64,000 nucleotides of DNA, from the NCBI GenBank assembly GCA_903882745.1, contig CAIRYG010000011.1, positions 62,001 to 126,000 of the forward strand, written 5' to 3'. The position numbers were made by a program, and so were the translations under genes. The notes under the pieces were generated by a model. That model saw only the letters and a list, made by a program, of their open reading frames with translations, did no database searches and was not told the origin of the DNA. Positions 32,892 to 48,061 of the stretch are shown one piece after another. Positions within the stretch are counted from its first letter, which is position 1. Each line of letters begins with the position of its first letter. Source of the DNA: an uncultured Gemmatimonadota bacterium (GTDB taxonomy: Bacteria > Gemmatimonadota > Gemmatimonadetes > Gemmatimonadales > Gemmatimonadaceae).

Positions 32892-32978
32892 CGGACGGGG
32901 TGGGATTCGAACCCACGGTACGCTTTCACGTACACACACTTTCCAGGCGTGCGCCTTAAACCACTCAGCCACCCGTCC
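32892..32978 (-). tRNA. tRNA-Ser, anticodon GGA
   Basis: An 87-nt minus-strand cloverleaf. The acceptor stem GGACGGG/CCCGTCC is perfect, with a G discriminator and no encoded CCA. The anticodon loop CTGGAAA reads UCC and UCU. A long variable arm (GTGTACGTGAAAGCGTAC region) and the T-loop GGTTCGAATCC are present, as expected for class II tRNA-Ser. Confidence 0.97.
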
Positions 32979-33009
32979 TCATGCACTTTTCCAATCCCTC
33001 CAACAACTA

Positions 33010-33047
33010 CGACGCGCTGGCACGCGAATCCGCGAACCAGCGCGTCG
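33010..33047. other. 11-bp inverted repeat between the two tRNA-Ser genes
   Basis: CGACGCGCTGG (33010-33020) pairs with CCAGCGCGTCG (33037-33047) around 16 bases. It lies just downstream of tRNA-Ser(CGA) on the minus strand. No clear T-run follows, so it could be a weak terminator or a processing signal. Confidence 0.6.
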
Positions 33048-33066
33048 GGTCACGCCTCCACTGCAG

Positions 33067-33153
33067 CGGACAGGGTGAGATTCGAACTCACGATACCGTT
33101 GCCGGTACGCCGGTTTTCGAGACCGGTGCCTTCAACCACTCGGCCACCTATCC
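33067..33153 (-). tRNA. tRNA-Ser, anticodon CGA
   Basis: An 87-nt minus-strand class II tRNA. The acceptor is GGATAGG/CCTGTCC (one T-G pair) with a G discriminator. The anticodon stem is CCGGT/ACCGG and the loop CTCGAAA gives anticodon CGA (codon UCG). A long variable arm and GGTTCGA-type T-loop (GAGTTCGAATCTC) are present. CCA is not encoded. Confidence 0.97.
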
Positions 33154-38611: not shown

Positions 38612-40486
38612 CTAGGGCTTGGGGGATGGCCAGCGGAAGGTGCGGTAATCGCCGTCGCGACGGCTGTAGCCGGCGCGATCACAGTATTCGAGGAACGGAA
38701 TCAGGTATTTCCGGCTAAGTCCAAGTGATTCCCTGAGTTGCGACGCCGTGAACTGCCCGCCGACGGCGGTGATTTCCGCCAGTCGACGCTCCAAAGCAGC
38801 CAACGCCACGGCCCCATAGTAGCGGTCCTGACTCACGGCGACGACGCGTTTTCCCCGTTCGAGGAGCCGCAGCAGCGCCTGCGTCCGTGGGCCGAACTTC
38901 GCCACGAGCTCGTCGACGCCCAGGGGTTCGGGCCCGCCGGCCTCCAAGAGGGCGGCGATTTCGTCCAAGCGGGCAGCGTCGCCCGCTGCGGCTGCCGGGT
39001 CGAACCCTACACGCGCCAGCACCTTCCCAGGGGGCTGCAGCACCCCCTTCGCCGCGAGCTCCGCGATGAGGCCCTCGAACAGCGCATCCGAGGTCGCCAG
39101 CGCCGCGCGCGCAGCCTCGCGGGGCATTCCAGGGTCCAACGGTTGCAGGCGGTGATGCTCCTCGACCTTGGCCTTCAAGCGGTTCCGCAGGGTCACGCGC
39201 AGCGCTTTGGCAAAGAGACGATCGCCGCTCCGCACAACATCGCGCTCCTTTTGGATCAGCGCAGACGCCTCGGTGGGCGTGACCCCGAGTTTGAGCGGCA
39301 GATCGGTCATCGCCAAACCGCGAGCGGCCGATTCATCGACGAGCCAGGCGAGCCGTTCCGACGCCTTAGCAAAGGCGTGCGGCCACGGCTTGGCACGCCG
39401 CGTGGTCCAGGGGTCAGTAATGACTCCCCCACCGATCGTCGCCAGCGGCGATGCGGATCGCAGGACGAACCGATCTCCGGCGCGCGCAAACACTGGCGCA
39501 TCGGTGGCGATCCGCACGGTCACGGTCCCTCCGGCCTCTGCCCGTCCGTGGCGCGTGATGACGCGTGCCCCCACCTCGCGTGTCCCAATGTGCAATCGCA
39601 CCTTGGTCCGGGGCCCAAGCGCGTTCGCGCCCTCGAGCAAGGCAAGATCCGCGCGCAGATGTCCCGTGTCGTGCCAGGCGGAATCGGCACTGACGAGCAC
39701 ATCGCCCCGCGAGAGCTCGTCATGATCCACGCCAGCCAGCGCCAGCGCGACCCGTGAGCCGGGCTCCGCGCGCACGACGCTGGCGCTGTGCTGCTCGACC
39801 CCGCGCACGCGGAGTGCGCGCCCGCGACCCACCGCGGAGCGTCCCCAGTCGAGGAGCACCACGGAGTCTTCGCGTGCCACCGAGCCACTCCAGAGCGTTC
39901 CGGTCACAACGGTCCCGGTGCCCTTCACCGTAAACACGCGGTCGATTGGGAGGCGCAGCAGGTCGTCAGCGTGGCGGGCTGGTACGCGGCGTGCGGCGTC
40001 GGCGAGCGCCAGACGAAGTGCGGGGAGCCCATCGCCGGTGGTCGCCGAACACCGAATGATCGGCGCGTCGGCGAGTGGCGTCCCATTTAGCAGTGCGCGG
40101 ACATCCTCCTCGACAAGATCGCTCCAGGCGCTGTCGACGAGATCGGATTTCGTGAGGGCCACGACACCGCCCACGATGCCCAGCAGCGAGAGAATCGCGA
40201 GATGCTCGCGCGTCTGCGGCATGGGACCTTCGTCCGCGGCAATCACAAGGAGCGCGATGTCGACGCCGGTGGCACCAGCGAGCATCGTCCGGACAAAAGC
40301 CTCGTGCCCTGGGACATCCACGACGCCGAGTGTGCCAATACTGTCGAGCTCGAGGGGCGCAAAGCCCAGTTCGATCGTGATGCCGCGACGCTTCTCCTCT
40401 GGCAGGCGGTCGGTGTCGACGCCGGTGAGGGCGCGCACGAGCGTCGTCTTGCCGTGATCGATGTGCCCCGCGGTTCCGAGAATCAC
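38612..40486 (-). CDS. selB: Selenocysteine-specific elongation factor SelB
   Basis: The 624-residue GTPase delivers Sec-tRNA to UGA codons marked by a SECIS hairpin. The GTP-binding motifs are GHIDHGKTTLV (residues 7-17), DVPGHEAFVRTM and TKSDLVD. Translation-factor beta domains and a long C-terminal region with winged-helix repeats (ending LSRKYLIPFLEYCDRAGY) follow. That region binds SECIS RNA and separates SelB from EF-Tu. The start is set at GTG 40484-40486, forming GTGA with the recO stop; an ATG 14 codons earlier is open. No selA, selC or selD lies in the window. Confidence 0.94.
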   Translation of the reverse strand: MILGTAGHIDHGKTTLVRALTGVDTDRLPEEKRRGITIELGFAPLELDSIGTLGVVDVPGHEAFVRTMLAGATGVDIALLVIAADEGPMPQTREHLAILSLLGIVGGVVALTKSDLVDSAWSDLVEEDVRALLNGTPLADAPIIRCSATTGDGLPALRLALADAARRVPARHADDLLRLPIDRVFTVKGTGTVVTGTLWSGSVAREDSVVLLDWGRSAVGRGRALRVRGVEQHSASVVRAEPGSRVALALAGVDHDELSRGDVLVSADSAWHDTGHLRADLALLEGANALGPRTKVRLHIGTREVGARVITRHGRAEAGGTVTVRIATDAPVFARAGDRFVLRSASPLATIGGGVITDPWTTRRAKPWPHAFAKASERLAWLVDESAARGLAMTDLPLKLGVTPTEASALIQKERDVVRSGDRLFAKALRVTLRNRLKAKVEEHHRLQPLDPGMPREAARAALATSDALFEGLIAELAAKGVLQPPGKVLARVGFDPAAAAGDAARLDEIAALLEAGGPEPLGVDELVAKFGPRTQALLRLLERGKRVVAVSQDRYYGAVALAALERRLAEITAVGGQFTASQLRESLGLSRKYLIPFLEYCDRAGYSRRDGDYRTFRWPSPKP

Positions 40487-41259
40487 CGTGGCGCCGCCTT
40501 GGCGGGGGCTGGGCGTAACTCCTCCCAACTCACAAAGGCGCGCAACGCGCGGCCGTCGCCCACATGTTCCTCAAGGAACTCACGCAGCAATCGCCGATGC
40601 GCGCGCGCACTGGCGTCATCAGCAATCGCAGCATCGCGCCCGTCGAGCCAGGTCGCGATGGTCGCGCGGGCCACCGCCGGAAGTGTGCGCCCGCCGGCCG
40701 CGCGACGCGCACAGGCCGGACAGAGCGCCCCGCCCGCTCGATGATGAAACGTCACGGGCGCCTCGGCGTCGAGCGGCGCGTGGCACGACGCACATGCATC
40801 CAAGGACGGTGCAAAACCAAGTCCGGCGACAAAATGCCAGAGCCCCGCCATCGCCGCCTCGGCGACCTGCTCCGGCGCAGCTTGGCCGATTTTATCGAGC
40901 GCACGCTCGGCGGCCTCAAAGACGCGACCCGAGTCGTCCTCTTGTCCGAAGCGCATACAGACTTCGGAGAGCGCTTCCGCAGCCCCAAATCGACCCAGCG
41001 ACGCGCCCAGCTGTGGCCGCGTTCGCGTGGTGTCGAATGCGTTCAGCGCGTGCAAGTCACCCGTCGGATGCATCGCGAGTTGCGCGACGCCACTCGTGAA
41101 CAGATCGAAAGCGCTGCCGAACTTGCTCTTGGGACGTCGCGCGCCACGCGCAATCGCGGAGACGACCCCGGCATCACGCGTCGCCAACCGCACAATGCGA
41201 GACGTCTCTCGGTAGTCAAACGCATGCAGGACGATGGCGTCGGTCGCGAGGATGCTCAC
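40483..41259 (-). CDS. recO: DNA repair protein RecO
   Basis: The 258-residue protein mediates RecA loading in the RecFOR pathway. The N-terminal OB-fold (TDAIVLHAFDYRETSRIVRL, then ARGARRPKSKFGSAFDLF) and a C-terminal zinc finger with CASC and CPAC pairs are visible. It overlaps selB by 4 bp. The 66-bp gap to btuB holds a strong hairpin. Confidence 0.95.
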   Translation of the reverse strand: MSILATDAIVLHAFDYRETSRIVRLATRDAGVVSAIARGARRPKSKFGSAFDLFTSGVAQLAMHPTGDLHALNAFDTTRTRPQLGASLGRFGAAEALSEVCMRFGQEDDSGRVFEAAERALDKIGQAAPEQVAEAAMAGLWHFVAGLGFAPSLDACASCHAPLDAEAPVTFHHRAGGALCPACARRAAGGRTLPAVARATIATWLDGRDAAIADDASARAHRRLLREFLEEHVGDGRALRAFVSWEELRPAPAKAAPR

Positions 41260-41325: not shown

Positions 41326-43284
41326 TTAGCGACCGATCCGGACGCCGAGGTACCAGAGCCGCCCCGGCGCCGGAAAGTGCAGCACCTCCTGGTAGGCGAC
41401 GTTGAACAGGTTCGTGGCGCTCACGACCATCTGCGGGCCACTCGCGTCGGCGCCCTTGAAGGGCAGCACCATCGACGCGTCTACTCGGGTGTACGCTGGG
41501 AGCGACACCGCGGTGCTTGGATAGGCCGCGAAATCGCGGTCGGCGCGTTCGCCGACGTGCATGGCGGTGACCTGCAAGCGTGAGCCGTCGGCCCACCGCT
41601 GTTCGGCGCTGACCGTGCTGCTCTGCGCGGGGCGACGAATCAGGCGCTCCCCCGCGACGTAGTTCGCGCCGGCGGACTTGTCGAAACCCGCCTGCGTCGT
41701 GCGCGTATCCGTCCACGATTGCGACGCGGCGACCGACGACATCGGCGTCAACTTCCACTCGGCGGACAGTTCCGCGCCATCGGCCTTTGCAGCCGCGACG
41801 TTGTAGTAGTTCGGCGCCCCCGGCTTGGGAGCGGTGCCGCTGTACTGGATGACATCGGTGAACTGCTGCGTGAAGAGGGCCCCACGCAGCGTGACGGCGC
41901 CGTCGTGCACAACACTCTCAAAGCCGACCTCACTGCTCCGTGAACGCTCCGGACGGAGCGCCGGATTTCCTGTCACGTAGCCGGTGGCGAAGTTCTCGTA
42001 AAAACTCGGCGCCTTGAAAGCATTGCCCATCGAGGCACGAATGCGCGTGGTGCTGTTCACGGTCCACGCCGCGCTGACGCGAGCGGTGCGGAAGGTCCCG
42101 AAGGAACTATTCTGATCCAAGCGGGCGCCCACACTGTAAGAGAGGCGCGACGACGCGTCCCCGAGCAGCTGCGCGTAGAGGGCGCTGTTGTTCCGCGCGG
42201 CCTCGAAGGCATCGGGCGAGTTCCCGTATTCGCTGAGCGAGAGCGACGTTGTCCGTTCGCGGTCGCGCGCGACTTCGCCACCGACTGTCAGCGTGTTGCG
42301 GTCAGCGAAACGATAATCGAGCCGTGCCTCAGCGGTGCGGCGCGTGCGCACGGACCGCGAGAAGTAGCCGTAGAAGCCGAGCGTGTCGGCAGGCGTATCG
42401 GGGCCGTCGTTGGAGCGCGGGAGATACTCGTTGGAGCCGAGCAGCAGATGGAGCAGCAGGTCCCTCGAAAGGCGATGGGCGACATCGGCCGACACGACCA
42501 GACGATGATCCACTTGCTCCGCATTTCGGTCGGCGACGGTACCGTCGTACTCGGTCGGATATTGGTAGAGCGACGACGACCACCGTGCGGAGAGCCGCGC
42601 GTCGGTCACGCCATTCGACAGGTGCGTCGCTGCGCTGAGTACGTCGGTCACGTCCTTGTTGTTGTACGGCAGGATGCCGTCGGTGGACTGGCGAGCGGCG
42701 AGCAGCGAATAACTCGCGGCTGACGTTCCGCCGTGCATACCGACGGAGCCGCGCTGCGCACCTCGTGCCCCGCGGCCAGCTTCCATCGTGTAGGCGGCAG
42801 CTCCACGCCCATCGCGGGTGATGATCTGAATGACGCCGGATACGGCGTTGGAGCCATATAGTACGCTGGCCGGACCACGCACCACTTCAATGCGATCCAC
42901 GTTATCCGTGCTCAGCGATCCGAAATCGAACGCGCCGCCGGCATCGTTCACCGCGACGCCATCGACGAGCACCGTGACGTAGTTGCTGTTCCCGCCGCGC
43001 AGGAAGAGCGACGTCACCGAGCCCTGCGGTCCGTTCTGCGCCATCTGGACGCCGGGAACAAGGCGAAGGGCGTCGCTGACTTTCGAGATCCCTTGGGCCC
43101 GCAACGCCTCGCCACTGAGCACCGTCGTGCTGGCGGTTGGAGCGTTCGTAGAGACTGGAACACGCGTTGCGGTCACGACAACCGTACCGAGCGTATCGCG
43201 TGCCCCTAGCGGGCCGCGCTGCTGGGCATGGGCGGTGCTGGCCAAAAACACCGTGAACAGAATTCTGGTGCGTACCCGTCTCAT
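41326..43284 (-). CDS. btuB: TonB-dependent outer-membrane vitamin B12 receptor
   Basis: The 652-residue protein has a signal peptide (ILFTVFLASTAHA) and a BtuB-like TonB box region (DTLGTVVVTATRVP). The plug domain (VSDALRLVPGVQMAQNGPQG, IEVVRGPASVLYGSNAVSG) and a 22-strand-type barrel with aromatic termini follow. It moves cobalamin across the outer membrane using TonB energy. It is the last gene of btuF-btuC-btuD-btuB, overlapping btuD by 4 bp, under the cobalamin riboswitch upstream; that context makes the B12 assignment firm. Confidence 0.94.
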   Translation of the reverse strand: MRRVRTRILFTVFLASTAHAQQRGPLGARDTLGTVVVTATRVPVSTNAPTASTTVLSGEALRAQGISKVSDALRLVPGVQMAQNGPQGSVTSLFLRGGNSNYVTVLVDGVAVNDAGGAFDFGSLSTDNVDRIEVVRGPASVLYGSNAVSGVIQIITRDGRGAAAYTMEAGRGARGAQRGSVGMHGGTSAASYSLLAARQSTDGILPYNNKDVTDVLSAATHLSNGVTDARLSARWSSSLYQYPTEYDGTVADRNAEQVDHRLVVSADVAHRLSRDLLLHLLLGSNEYLPRSNDGPDTPADTLGFYGYFSRSVRTRRTAEARLDYRFADRNTLTVGGEVARDRERTTSLSLSEYGNSPDAFEAARNNSALYAQLLGDASSRLSYSVGARLDQNSSFGTFRTARVSAAWTVNSTTRIRASMGNAFKAPSFYENFATGYVTGNPALRPERSRSSEVGFESVVHDGAVTLRGALFTQQFTDVIQYSGTAPKPGAPNYYNVAAAKADGAELSAEWKLTPMSSVAASQSWTDTRTTQAGFDKSAGANYVAGERLIRRPAQSSTVSAEQRWADGSRLQVTAMHVGERADRDFAAYPSTAVSLPAYTRVDASMVLPFKGADASGPQMVVSATNLFNVAYQEVLHFPAPGRLWYLGVRIGR

Positions 43285-44069
43285 CTCGGACTTCTCCCTC
43301 GGAGTGGAACCAGCATAGGTGCGCCGACCGCTGGATCACGCGACACCACGAGTGGCCACTCGTAGACGCGCTCCAGCAGATCGCCGCGCATAACATCGGA
43401 TGGTGACCCAATGGCCACCGCTTCACCTGCGTGCAACAATGCGATCCGGTCCGCAAACCGTGCGACAAGATTCAACTGATGACTGACCAACAGCACCGCG
43501 ATGCCGTCGTGCGCGAGTTCGTCGAGCAGTTCAAAGACCGACATCTCATGTGCGATATCGAGAAAGGTGGTCGGCTCATCGAGCACGATCGCGTGACCCT
43601 GCTGTGCGAGCGCCCGCGCGATCCGCACGCGCTGCCACTCGCCGCCGGAGAGCGTATCGGTCCGTCGATCAAGGAATGCCGCGACCCCAGCCCGCTCCGC
43701 CGACGATTCCGCGATGACGACGTCGCTGGCAGTCGGACCCGCCCAGAGCGAGCCGTGTGCGAACCGGCCGAGCGCAATGAAATCGCGCACGAGCATGGGG
43801 AACACCGGCTCCTCACGCTGCGTCACCACGGCCATCCGACGCGCCACGTCGCGCCGCGAGAGCTCCGCCAGCGATGCCCCGTCGATGGTAATCGTTCCCT
43901 GCTCTGGGGTCACACGTCCGAGCAGTGCACGAACTAGCGTGCTCTTGCCACTCCCATTGGGCCCGACAATCGCGGTGAGTTTCCCCGTCTCTGCTCGCAG
44001 CGAAAAGGACTGAACCGCAGGGGCGAATTGGCCAGGGTAACGCAGTCGCACGTCATCGAAGCGGATCAT
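43281..44069 (-). CDS. btuD: Cobalamin ABC transporter ATP-binding protein
   Basis: The 262-residue ATPase has Walker A GPNGSGKS (36-43), signature LSGGEWQRVRIARAL and Walker B AIVLDEPTTFLDI. It is of the FecE/BtuD type. The start is ATG 44067-44069, overlapping the btuC stop as ATGA; the open frame continues into btuC but is not used. It powers cobalamin import through BtuC. Confidence 0.95.
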   Translation of the reverse strand: MIRFDDVRLRYPGQFAPAVQSFSLRAETGKLTAIVGPNGSGKSTLVRALLGRVTPEQGTITIDGASLAELSRRDVARRMAVVTQREEPVFPMLVRDFIALGRFAHGSLWAGPTASDVVIAESSAERAGVAAFLDRRTDTLSGGEWQRVRIARALAQQGHAIVLDEPTTFLDIAHEMSVFELLDELAHDGIAVLLVSHQLNLVARFADRIALLHAGEAVAIGSPSDVMRGDLLERVYEWPLVVSRDPAVGAPMLVPLRGRSPR

Positions 44070-45040
44070 GACATTCTCCGCAAGCGCAGCAGAAAGAACG
44101 GCACGCCCACGAGTGCGGTGACCGCACCGAGCGGTAACTCCGCTGGGGCACGGGCCACGCGCGCTGCGAGATCCGCGGCAACCACAAGTGTGGCACCCGT
44201 GACGGCGGACGCGAGAATGGTTCCTCGTACGGTCCGTGCACCAAGCGACCGCGCGATTGCCGGGACGACGAGTCCTACGAATCCAACAAGCCCCGCCGCG
44301 GCAACCGTAACGGCAGCCAAGAGCGAAGAAATCAGAAAGATTCGCCGGGTTGCCGCGACCGTGTCCACACCGAGGGCGAGCGCGGGTTCGTCGCCGAGCG
44401 CGAGCAGCTCGATCTCGCGGCCGTACACCATCAGGAGCGCGCCGCCGAGCGCCACGTATCCCGCCGTCCAGCGTACGCCGGCCCACGATGCGTCCCCCAG
44501 TGAGCCCATCATCCACCAGAGGGCGCTCCGCACCGTCTGATCCGGGACATTGGACATCACGATCATGATCGCTGCATTCGCAAACGCACCAACCACCACG
44601 CCGGCCATCACGAGCACGCGTGCGTCACCCGGTCCACGTGCCGCCTGCGCCACCGCGAGCACGGCCAACACCGCGACGACCGCGCCAGCAAAGGCTGCCA
44701 GAGGAACCAGCCCAGGCGCGGTTACTGAGAGCGACGTCGCGAGCACGGCACCGACCGCCGCACCGCCGCTCACTCCAAGAAGATACGGTTCGGCGAGCGC
44801 GTTCCGCAGATTCGCCTGCAATGCGGCCCCACTCATGCCAAGGCCCGCGCCCACCGCGATGCCAAGTGCGACCCGCGGCAACCGCAGCACGCGCACAATC
44901 ATCTCTGCGTCTGCCGCACCGCGTCCCATCAGCGCGTCAACGACGGTCGAGAGCGACAAGCTCACAGAACCGAAGGCAATCGCCGCGAGCGCCGCGAGGG
45001 TAAGCGTCAGGAACAGGAGCACCCACGCGCGGGTACGCAT
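44066..45040 (-). CDS. btuC: Cobalamin ABC transporter permease (FecCD family)
   Basis: The 324-residue inner-membrane protein has about ten helices. FecCD/BtuC motifs include LRLPRVALGIAVGAGLGMSG, NALAEPYLLGVSGGAAVGAV and a GFVGLVVPAIARSLG segment near the C-terminus that contacts the ATPase. It follows btuF by 3 bp and overlaps btuD by 4 bp. Confidence 0.95.
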   Translation of the reverse strand: MRTRAWVLLFLTLTLAALAAIAFGSVSLSLSTVVDALMGRGAADAEMIVRVLRLPRVALGIAVGAGLGMSGAALQANLRNALAEPYLLGVSGGAAVGAVLATSLSVTAPGLVPLAAFAGAVVAVLAVLAVAQAARGPGDARVLVMAGVVVGAFANAAIMIVMSNVPDQTVRSALWWMMGSLGDASWAGVRWTAGYVALGGALLMVYGREIELLALGDEPALALGVDTVAATRRIFLISSLLAAVTVAAAGLVGFVGLVVPAIARSLGARTVRGTILASAVTGATLVVAADLAARVARAPAELPLGAVTALVGVPFFLLRLRRMS

Positions 45041-45043
45041 CGG

Positions 45044-45982
45044 TTAGCGCTTCACAGCGATATTGCTTCGTGGTGTTGCGGCAGTAGCCGAGTCGAGCAG
45101 TGCGCGGATCCGCCGCGCCGCCTCACCCATGCGAATTCCGGGACGCCCGACCAGCGCCGTATCAACCACGAGCACGCGCCCTTCACGAACCGCGCGCACG
45201 GCGCGCCAGGCCGGATTCACGAGCAACTTCGGTGCATTGGTGGGGCCCGACAGCACATAATCCGGATCGCGCTTCACGATCTCCTCAAGCGACACCTGGG
45301 GCGCGGACTCGGGGCGATCACCGAAGATGTTCTCGGCGCCAGCCGCTGCGACGAGTTCGTCGAGGTAGCTCGCGCTGCCGATGGTGTACACGGGCGCATC
45401 CCAGACGTGCCAGAAAATAGTGGGACGCTTGGTGCTGTGTCCGGCGGGGCGCGTCGAGTTCGTACGCACGGCACGAATCTCGCCGAGCACACTGTCGCCG
45501 AGTGCGGCTCCGCGCGCCGAGTCGCCAATGGCGAGACCAAGGACGAGCGCGGTGCGCCGGAAGTCGTCGGTTCGATCCTGATGCATTGAGATTGTTGCGA
45601 CACCCGCTTGGCGGAGTCGGCGTGCCGCCGACCGATTCGATGCGCTCGCGTAGAGCACCACCAAATCCGGGCGGGCTCCGAGCACGGCCTCGATGTTCGG
45701 TTGCATGCCGTCGCCGACATCTGGCACGGCACGTGCGGCGGCGGGATAACTGTCCCAGTGGGTCCGACCAACCACACGCCCGCCCACGCCAAGCGCGAAG
45801 AGCAGTTCCGTGGTCACTGGACTCAGCGAGACAATGCGCTGGGCGCGAAGACCGGGCGGGATCGTATCGCCGAAATCGTCGACGCGGACGACCGTCGAAT
45901 CGCCCGGACGCGCATCGCGCGCGCACGCCGTCAGCGAGACGCTGAGCTTGAAGACTGCAATGGCGCGATGCCGAAAATTCAA
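45044..45982 (-). CDS. btuF: Cobalamin-binding lipoprotein of the ABC transporter
   Basis: The 312-residue TroA-fold solute-binding protein has RIVSLSPVTTELLFALGVG, a central DLVVLYAS strand and the C-terminal lobe with FWHVWDAPVYTIG. The start is set at TTG 45980-45982, six bases after AAGGAG. That start gives a lipoprotein signal (MNFRHRAIAVFKLSVSLTAC, lipobox LTAC). The frame is open from a GTG at 46036, but that start would put extra residues before the signal and lacks a ribosome site. Its ribosome site is buried in a hairpin under the cobalamin riboswitch. Confidence 0.92.
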   Translation of the reverse strand: MNFRHRAIAVFKLSVSLTACARDARPGDSTVVRVDDFGDTIPPGLRAQRIVSLSPVTTELLFALGVGGRVVGRTHWDSYPAAARAVPDVGDGMQPNIEAVLGARPDLVVLYASASNRSAARRLRQAGVATISMHQDRTDDFRRTALVLGLAIGDSARGAALGDSVLGEIRAVRTNSTRPAGHSTKRPTIFWHVWDAPVYTIGSASYLDELVAAAGAENIFGDRPESAPQVSLEEIVKRDPDYVLSGPTNAPKLLVNPAWRAVRAVREGRVLVVDTALVGRPGIRMGEAARRIRALLDSATAATPRSNIAVKR

Positions 45983-45983
45983 A

Positions 45984-46014
45984 ACGGGCTCCTTCCGGAT
46001 GGGAAGAAACCCGT
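45984..46014 (-). promoter_or_regulatory. Hairpin sequestering the btuF Shine-Dalgarno site
   Basis: On the minus strand ACGGGTTTCTTCC (46014-46002) pairs with GGAAGGAGCCCGT (45996-45984) across the loop CATCC: 13 bp with two G-U pairs. The AAGGAG ribosome site is in the 3' strand and the TTG start follows one base later. This is the expected off-state of a translation-controlling riboswitch. A second stem, GGATGCG/CGCATCC (46057-46051 with 46031-46025), lies between it and the aptamer. Confidence 0.8.
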
Positions 46015-46097
46015 AACGCACGATGGATGCGGCCACCTACGGCCAATGAACGCATCCAGCGAACGCCACCAGTCCTCCCCCGAGGTCCTGTGATCGT

Positions 46098-46248
46098 GGC
46101 GCGAACGTGGGTCGTCTCCTGGCTCCGGGCAACCACACTCGCCTTCCCGACCGCTCGGTCAGTGGCATTGTGAGTATGGCGTGTTGCTACCCGTTACAGT
46201 GGCGGGGCCGCGTCGGCATTGCACCGACTTCCGTGTCCCGCGTTCGCC
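46098..46248 (-). ncRNA. Cobalamin riboswitch aptamer
   Basis: The minus strand shows the conserved core in order: GGAAGTCGGTGCAATGCCGA, CGCGGCCCCGCCACTGTAA, AATGCCACTGACC, GGGAAGGCGAGTG and GAGCCAGGAGACGACC. The P1 helix forms between GGCGAACG...GGG at the 5' end and CCCACGTTCGCGCC at the 3' end (46098-46107). It lies directly upstream of btuFCDB and should shut the operon when adenosylcobalamin or a related cobalamin is abundant. Confidence 0.97.
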
Positions 46249-46266
46249 TTCAGTTGTTTTGAGAAG

Positions 46267-47457
46267 CTATTGTAGACCGTCTCGGCGCGCAATAGCGACA
46301 CCAAGGCGTCCCTTCAACTGCGCGCGCGTTTGATAGTGCGCTGCCTTCTGATCGGCGGTGGGTGCTGTGAGTTCCCCGTACGCGGCATCGAGTGCCGCAA
46401 TCTGCTTGGCCAGGACATCCGGATCATCGGCGTGACGGGCATCGCGCGCGGCCGAGCCAGCGCCACGGCGGAGGAAGCCGCCGGCGAGTCCAAGCAGGAC
46501 CGCGGCCCCGATGACCGTAACGGCGAGAGCCAGGCGCACGTTGAGACTCCCGGCTCCTCCGCCGGGCACGCCAACGACCACGCGCGCGCTTGCAAGCACT
46601 TCGTCGCCAAGGAATCGTGCGAAGCTGCGCCCGCCCACTGTTGCGGCCTGCTGGGCTTTCACCCCACCTCCGGTCACGCCACCGCCCTGCCCTTCGAGGA
46701 GTACCTCAAGGACGGGGACTTTCACCGGGACGGGAAGGGTGAATTGCTTGGCTGAGGAGGGGAGCGAATAGGTGATCGAGAACTGCTTGAGCCCGGGTCC
46801 GATCGGCGCGATGACGCGAACCGCATTCCCGTCGAACGTGATGGATTCCGCAGAGATATCCCCCTGCCCGCCCCGAGGAGCCAGCGCGCCATCGGGGAGC
46901 CGCGTTTCGAATACGGCCCGTTTAGCCGGCCCCGGCACACGGGTGAGCGTGGAGTCGTTACTGAGTTCGTAGACCTCAATAATCACGCGCTCTTTTGGCG
47001 TGGTGCTGTCGGGCGCCGTCACCACCACGTGACGGCCACGCACGGTAATCGCCACCGGGCCACTCGTCGTGTCAAACACGGTGAGCGTTGCATCGTCGCC
47101 GCTCACGCGCGCGCCGCGCAGGGGCGACGTGAAATAGGCGATGCCCGAGTAGTTGGTCGACACGAAATACAGCGCGGTCGAATCCCCGTTGGGGCGATAC
47201 CGCATGGTGTACCGTCCAGCGGCGTCCGTGCGTACGGAATCGAGCGGGCCAGAACGGTCCTTGTCCACGCGATGCAGGGTGGCCCAAGCGCCGGCGAGCG
47301 GGGTTGGCGTGCGCCCCACCGTGTGCACGATGCGTCCCGACACCTCACGCGGCGCGCCCGGTCCTTCCGCAGCCGATTGGGCTCCGCGGCTCGACGCGCG
47401 GACTAGCTGTGCGGCGGCAGCCGCGACGACCACGAACCTACGGACGGAACTTTCCAA
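46267..47457 (-). CDS. Secreted/membrane protein with carboxypeptidase-regulatory-like domain
   Basis: The protein is about 396 residues if TTG 47455-47457 is the start, which gives a convincing signal (MESSVRRFVVVAAAAAQLV). GTG 47431-47433 is the alternative. An Ig-like carboxypeptidase-regulatory domain (VSGRIVHTVGRTPTPLAG, then GRYTMRYRPNGDS) comes first, and more beta-rich sequence follows. One membrane helix (LALAVTVIGAAVLLGLAGGF) and a short helical cytoplasmic tail end the protein. No function is recognised. It overlaps the DUF151 gene end and is read from the metK side. Confidence 0.7.
   Translation of the reverse strand: MESSVRRFVVVAAAAAQLVRASSRGAQSAAEGPGAPREVSGRIVHTVGRTPTPLAGAWATLHRVDKDRSGPLDSVRTDAAGRYTMRYRPNGDSTALYFVSTNYSGIAYFTSPLRGARVSGDDATLTVFDTTSGPVAITVRGRHVVVTAPDSTTPKERVIIEVYELSNDSTLTRVPGPAKRAVFETRLPDGALAPRGGQGDISAESITFDGNAVRVIAPIGPGLKQFSITYSLPSSAKQFTLPVPVKVPVLEVLLEGQGGGVTGGGVKAQQAATVGGRSFARFLGDEVLASARVVVGVPGGGAGSLNVRLALAVTVIGAAVLLGLAGGFLRRGAGSAARDARHADDPDVLAKQIAALDAAYGELTAPTADQKAAHYQTRAQLKGRLGVAIARRDGLQ
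46269..46274 (-). promoter_or_regulatory. Candidate -10 element of the btu operon
   Basis: TACAAT on the minus strand lies about 20 bases upstream of the riboswitch 5' end, overlapping the stop of the upstream gene. No good -35 is present at 16-18 bases. Confidence 0.4.
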
Positions 47458-48061
47458 AGTCCTCCGGACGCAATTGTTCGAGGTATCGCTGCAGGTCCGA
47501 TGACGCGGGCTTCCCTGTTGCCGATGGCGACTGGTAGCCCCCCTCGTCGTATTCTGGTTCATCACGGCTCGGCGGATTGTCCTGCTGCGCGCTCGTGAAA
47601 TCCGGAATCTCAGGCATCTCACGCTCATCGTCGGATGCCGCGCCATCCTCGGCGTTCTCGTCATCGCCGAGCGTTGGATAGTGCGCGAGCAGGGCGTCCG
47701 CCGCGAACATCGGCGCATCGGCGCGCAGCGCGAGCGCGATCGCGTCCGACGGTCGCGCGTCGATCAGAATATCGGTGCCGTTATGTTCGACTACGAGTTG
47801 CGCGAAAAACGTGTTTTCGCTGACATGCGTTACCGTCACGCGCTTGATCATGCCGCCTAGCGACGCCACAAGGGCGCGTGCGAGATCATGAGTCAAGGGA
47901 CGCTCGTTCGTCACGCCCTCGAGGTGACGGGCAATGGCTTCCGCCTCAGCGCGTCCAATCCAGATCGGGAGCATACGCGTGCCGTTCAGCTCTTGGAGCA
48001 CGACGAGGTTGGTGCCCGCCGTGCCATCCATGGCCAGTCGAGAGACCCGTACGGGTATCAT
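47438..48061 (-). CDS. DUF151 bifunctional nuclease family protein
   Basis: The 207-residue protein begins MIPVRVSRLAMDGTAGTNLV and has LPIWIGRAEAEAIARHLEG, followed by the RPLTHDLARALV and IDARPSDAIALALR motifs of the DUF151 (bifunctional nuclease) family. The C-terminal 70 residues are acidic and low in complexity. Plant and bacterial relatives have DNase/RNase activity in vitro; the cellular role is unclear. The ATG at 48059-48061 lies in the loop of a 13-bp inverted repeat. A TTG at 48088 directly after metK would avoid this but lacks a ribosome site. Confidence 0.88.
   Translation of the reverse strand: MIPVRVSRLAMDGTAGTNLVVLQELNGTRMLPIWIGRAEAEAIARHLEGVTNERPLTHDLARALVASLGGMIKRVTVTHVSENTFFAQLVVEHNGTDILIDARPSDAIALALRADAPMFAADALLAHYPTLGDDENAEDGAASDDEREMPEIPDFTSAQQDNPPSRDEPEYDEGGYQSPSATGKPASSDLQRYLEQLRPEDFGKFRP

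Follow-up and report, generated by a model that had tools for sequence, protein, structure and literature searches.

The kissing loop is known to be required in corrinoid riboswitches (PMC10653944). The relay logic proposed below was shown experimentally for the corrinoid riboswitch of Priestia megaterium metE (PMC10653944) and for Mycobacterium tuberculosis metE, in which the anti-anti-TIR is blocked by the kissing loop (PMC11260477). In the case of Gemmatimonadota, no report on cobalamin riboswitch mechanisms was found in the literature covered, which was without most subscription journals. We investigated one leader in a 64,000-nt stretch of DNA from a Gemmatimonadota bacterium (the window). 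All coordinates of its elements count from the first letter of the window, and the elements lie on the minus strand. A preliminary description had proposed a cobalamin riboswitch, to be checked by a covariance search. This search matched RF00174 at 46257-46092 (-) with 83.6 bits (E 4e-19; gathering threshold 31.5), covering model positions 1-189 with the conserved core present. It was the sole cobalamin aptamer in the window and in the assembly in the Rfam scan. P1 was formed by GCGAACG (5' strand, 46247-46241 (-)) and CGTTCGC (3' strand, 46107-46101 (-)), and the L5 loop read GGCCCCG (46203-46209 (-)), in which CCCCG would be the kissing strand. The range first given, 45984-46248, covered the element but included neither promoter nor start codon. 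A -35-like TTGCGC (46287-46292 (-)) was located 17 nt upstream of a -10-like TAGCTT (46264-46269 (-)), which overlapped the upstream gene's stop codon. The two motifs recurred in relatives, and TTGC, 17 nt and TAGCTT(C) were found at the same place, just before the aptamer, in most of the 21 relatives listed. We infer only that TTGCGC-17 nt-TAGCTT is promoter-like; the transcript would then begin at about 46257, the 5' end of the aptamer. The upstream gene (46267-47475 (-); ORF 47718-46267) gave no Pfam or NCBIfam family match.

The aptamer preceded a BtuF-BtuC-BtuD-BtuB operon of B12 uptake genes, the last of which was BtuB-like by profile. The periplasmic B12-binding protein BtuF (45044-45982 (-), from TTG 45982; PF01497) carried the signal LNFRHRAIAVFKLSVSLTAC and matched solved B12-binding proteins with E down to 3e-20. 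Its nearest named records were Gemmatimonadetes metagenome assemblies, the closest with 88% identity. It was followed by the permease btuC (44066-45040 (-); PF01032, FecCD-type; best NCBIfam match BtuC, below cut-off), the ATPase btuD (43281-44072 (-); PF00005, ABC ATPase) and the TonB-dependent receptor btuB (41326-43284 (-); PF00593 and PF07715; best NCBIfam match TIGR01779 TonB-B12, below the curated cut-off). Near the operon, a SelB-like elongation factor (38612-40528 (-)) scored above the NCBIfam cut-off, which suggests selenocysteine use. Two tRNA-Ser genes (GGA and CGA) lay close together at 32892-33153 (-) and were the only tRNAs in the window.

The start of btuF was preceded by a 13-bp hairpin with the loop CAUCC (46014-45984 (-)). 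Its 5' arm, ACGGGUUUCUUCC, was an anti-Shine-Dalgarno (anti-SD) sequence, and its 3' arm, GGAAGGAGCCCGU, contained the Shine-Dalgarno (SD) sequence AAGGAG (45994-45989 (-)), six bases before TTG 45982-45980. A single base separated the hairpin from this TTG. The predicted stability was −20.7 kcal/mol (z −4.9), and none of 200 shuffled sequences folded as well. The hairpin, AAGGAG and TTG were thus exactly as first claimed. In the case of the "perfect" lipoprotein signal claimed for the TTG start, the lipobox was good (LTAC, with Cys as residue 20), but the word was too strong because a lysine breaks the hydrophobic stretch.

For a comparison covering about 200 relatives, approximately 240 loci were retrieved, and the first set consisted of 119 oriented leaders preceding BtuF. 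RF00174 gave matches in 55 of 61 relatives, in 132 of 148 family members and in 71 of 81 sister-family members. A separate, much higher-scoring group of cobalamin aptamers (L031-L045; 108-125 bits) came from further genera within the family; the aptamer motif used for orienting was missing from most of them, and the oriented ones did not precede BtuF. At another locus (L151; G025:C491:11146-11638), two divergent cobalamin riboswitches stood back to back, approximately 95 bases apart. Loss of the hairpin complementarity in homologous leaders had been set beforehand as one of two refuting observations. In 106 of the 119 BtuF leaders, the end of a hairpin of 22-42 nt adjoined an in-frame start, with 0-4 nt between them in most cases, where the start was picked with the hairpin in view. 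These hairpins had a median of 12 bp and −20.6 kcal/mol, and in 96 of the 106 the SD duplex was at least as stable as −5 kcal/mol. When the window structure was imposed on a structure-free alignment, 90.6% of the cells were paired; slid controls reached 48-58%, and no shuffle exceeded 79.3%. All 13 hairpin pairs showed compensatory, double-sided changes among the relatives, in counts uncorrected for relatedness. This covariation and the SD at the start place the hairpin among translational, SD-sequestering platforms, and by comparison its role in hiding the SD was well supported.

The start codons adjoining the hairpin were TTG in 56 leaders, GTG in 46 and ATG in 4, so that TTG or GTG accounted for 102 of 106. 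When the start was chosen independently, by signal peptide and lipobox, the hairpin-adjacent start was obtained in many leaders, including that of the window. The spacing from P13, the hairpin after P1, to the start was spread across all three frames in the relatives. This meant that no upstream reading frame was kept, which counts against translation from GTG 46036. An in-frame stop between P13 and the start was found in just 30 of 106 leaders, and stops alone do not fix the start site. The TTG start proposed for btuF was strongly supported by the hairpin-start junction conserved in more than 100 relatives. In the relative L014, the btuF start after the hairpin read CTG, with no ATG, GTG or TTG there; this btuF possibly begins at CUG.

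P13 occupied 46101-46064 (-) and paired CGCCAC with GTGGCG, CAG with CTG, and CCTC with GAGG around a GGGG loop (46081-46078). It sat right after P1 in these leaders, in the form GCCAC...CCTC-GGGG-GAGG...GTGGC. Its outer stem varied in a compensated manner, for example to CCCGC/GCGGG or CGACA/TGTCG, and in 70% of distinct leaders its own strands matched over at least 5 pairs, versus 50% for permuted strands. The CGGGG of L13 was complementary to the CCCCG of L5. Among leaders with GGCCCC in L5, at least 4 contiguous L5:L13 pairs were possible in 87%. L5 was GGCCCCG, identically, in 144 leaders. GGUCCCG was present in about 8-10 leaders, and there L13 also differed (for example CGGAG, CGGAA or CGGGA); these came from few genera, and some of the pairs were imperfect. 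Judged by sequence only, this complementarity and its joint change in relatives correspond to an L5-L13 kissing loop. The P13/L13 kissing hairpin, which the preliminary description had not seen, most likely carries the coupling between the aptamer and the hairpin at the start.

The GGGGAGG at 46080-46074 (-), which consists of a portion of L13 together with the P13 3' strand, is an SD mimic that could hold the hairpin 5' arm as an anti-sequestor. In the predicted fold of a window transcript ending before the 3' arm, GGGGAGG paired with the 5' arm (P 0.99), and the fold trajectory also placed it there. Among truncated folds of 97 leaders, 74 had the P13 3' strand paired with the 5' arm (P > 0.5), with a mean of 0.66 versus 0.19 for shuffled arms; 23 leaders did not favour the anti-sequestor. 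Since the strands are SD-like or anti-SD-like, this pairing is partly implied and is not independent covariation. In the full-length leader, the closed hairpin was always preferred, with AAGGAG paired at more than 0.99, and opening the SD arm raised the energy from −63.4 to −51.1 kcal/mol. This meant that the open state would have to be kinetic, reached during transcription. A stem-loop, GGATGCG...CGCATCC (46057-46051/46031-46025 (-)), formed a variable structural spacer inside the anti-sequestor helix.

The comparison of leaders showed the aptamer, the kissing complementarity, the conserved hairpin at the start, the U-tract described below and the strand complementarity; we infer the ligand identity, the direction of regulation, the folding order and termination. 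The leader is quite probably a cobalamin riboswitch that represses the B12 uptake genes through a relay-type platform, in which closing of the hairpin probably terminates some transcripts too. With B12 bound, the L5 CCCCG would kiss the L13 CGGGG and keep P13 closed. The GGGGAGG of the 3' strand would then be occupied, and the hairpin 5' arm UUUCUUCC would be free to pair with the 3' arm, burying AAGGAG beside the TTG start. Without B12, P13 would open during transcription, and GGGGAGG would capture the 5' arm before the 3' arm was made, leaving the ribosome site open. In the presence of ligand, L5, L13 and GGAAGGAG would be protected.

Different routes from the aptamer to the start were also considered. 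The preliminary description had proposed that a second CGTTCGC competes for the P1 5' strand, displacing the P1 3' strand, and that the intermediate GGATGCG/CGCATCC stem relays the signal. The second CGTTCGC existed, at 46065-46059 (-) rather than 46062-46068, and the 7-base identity was shared by the window and its nearest relative. Its conservation was at chance: P1-strand copies of at least 7 bases occurred in 7.5% of leaders versus 4.7% of shuffled ones. It overlapped the conserved GTGGCG, and the copy would be at most an accident of that motif. The intermediate stem was present, but its stability was ordinary for its composition (z −1.1). Some structure was common in the leaders (mean z −1.3), but its sequence differed between genera, and it was rejected as a switching strand. 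This path was therefore judged very improbable. A kiss between the ATTGGCC loop of this stem and the P4 loop was also tried, and was dropped once the L5 GGCCCC and L13 GGGG had been located. In another route, opening of P13 would make GGGGAGG available as ribosome site to a short upstream frame beginning at GTG 46069, whose translation would hold the hairpin open. Such an SD-start arrangement was present in 130 of 142 relay leaders, and M. tuberculosis ppe2 needs translation of a uORF for its expression (PMC11260477). However, stops were no rarer than in other frames, the frame was not kept, and no coding signal was observed. The GTG was explained by P13 pairing and was lost where the pair had become CCCGC/GCGGG. 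We regard this route as improbable, if somewhat less so than the CGTTCGC path.

A further choice concerned what the closed hairpin does. The U-rich tract UUUUGAAUUUU (45974-45984 (-)) followed the hairpin and ran through the start codon, with interruptions in the window. In 106 leaders, the 8 bases after the hairpin contained a mean of 4.9 U versus 1.35 expected, with at least 5 U of 8 in 69 of them. The mean was 4.5 U in the sister-family set, where a few of the hairpin calls were doubtful. The conserved tract suggests that the hairpin may end transcription besides blocking translation. If regulation were purely translational, the hairpin would just hide the ribosome site and start, and the U-tract would be an open, unstructured start region. 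This would agree with the SD in the 3' arm in most leaders, close to the start, and the window overall showed no excess of terminator-like sites. It is a possible reading, which we hold to be clearly the less probable, because the tract was specific to these leaders: the 6 bases after the start codon contained 3.2 U, compared to 1.1 in 21 other window genes, and the other window genes with a ribosome site had no such tract. In addition, hairpins with a weak SD retained the U-tract in 7 of 7 cases, and the tract was present before genes for other proteins too. Conversely, the hairpin could be purely an intrinsic terminator, with the SD in its 3' arm by chance of the adjacent start codon. Its anatomy was that of a terminator, a GC-rich stem (12 bp) followed directly by a U-tract, and among the 14 terminator-like sites of its 20-kb region the window hairpin ranked highest. 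This is unlikely, since SD complementarity was strongly kept in the arm and was always occluded once the stem formed, and hairpin-less relatives sequester the SD directly. The relay reading with both functions was retained: the hairpin hides the ribosome site and, with the U-tract behind it, probably also ends some transcripts when it closes.

Several relatives without the hairpin (L017, L154, L180, L200, L208, L214, L215, L218 and L223) had a start within about 10 nt of P13 and a good lipoprotein signal. L013, L064 and L071, which were also in the automatic hairpin-less list, resemble relay leaders that the filter had failed to catch. With the start so near, the GGGAGG of P13 itself would be the ribosome site. 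Direct leaders co-occurred with relay leaders in different genera, a distribution suggesting that the two platforms interconvert. We tentatively propose, with slightly less than even confidence, an order-wide arrangement in which one hairpin has the ribosome site as its 3' arm and a U-tract through a non-AUG start, B12 stops translation and transcription in the same fold, and there is interconversion between the relay platform and a direct one using the P13 SD mimic as ribosome site.

The locus is a well-formed cobalamin riboswitch and a known kind of switch. The new details would be the U-tract through the start codon and the hairpin-less relatives using the P13 strand as ribosome site. The locus provides a concrete, testable B12 switch for a phylum in which few regulatory RNAs have been studied, and the comparison fixes btuF starts, which gene callers may put in the wrong place. 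Direct and relay leaders side by side in related genera form a natural series for platform conversion, which also bears on whether one hairpin shares termination and translation control. As in M. tuberculosis metE, masking of the anti-anti-TIR would free an anti-TIR to occlude the start, with approximately 60 nt between them there and a similar distance here (PMC11260477). That system concerns a different gene and has an extra uORF in its aptamer; Rho-dependent termination or decay is suspected there in place of a U-tract hairpin (PMC11260477). In the case of P. megaterium metE, the last hairpin was described as a terminator only and not as a ribosome-site hairpin at the start codon (PMC10653944). 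In E. coli btuB and env8HyCbl, P13 is stabilised by the kissing loop, which favours formation of the ribosome-site hairpin, as proposed here (PMC10653944). In contrast to these, a second, separate hairpin with an SD-mimic relay is present in the window leader, and direct use of P13 for the ribosome-site hairpin was seen only in the hairpin-less relatives.
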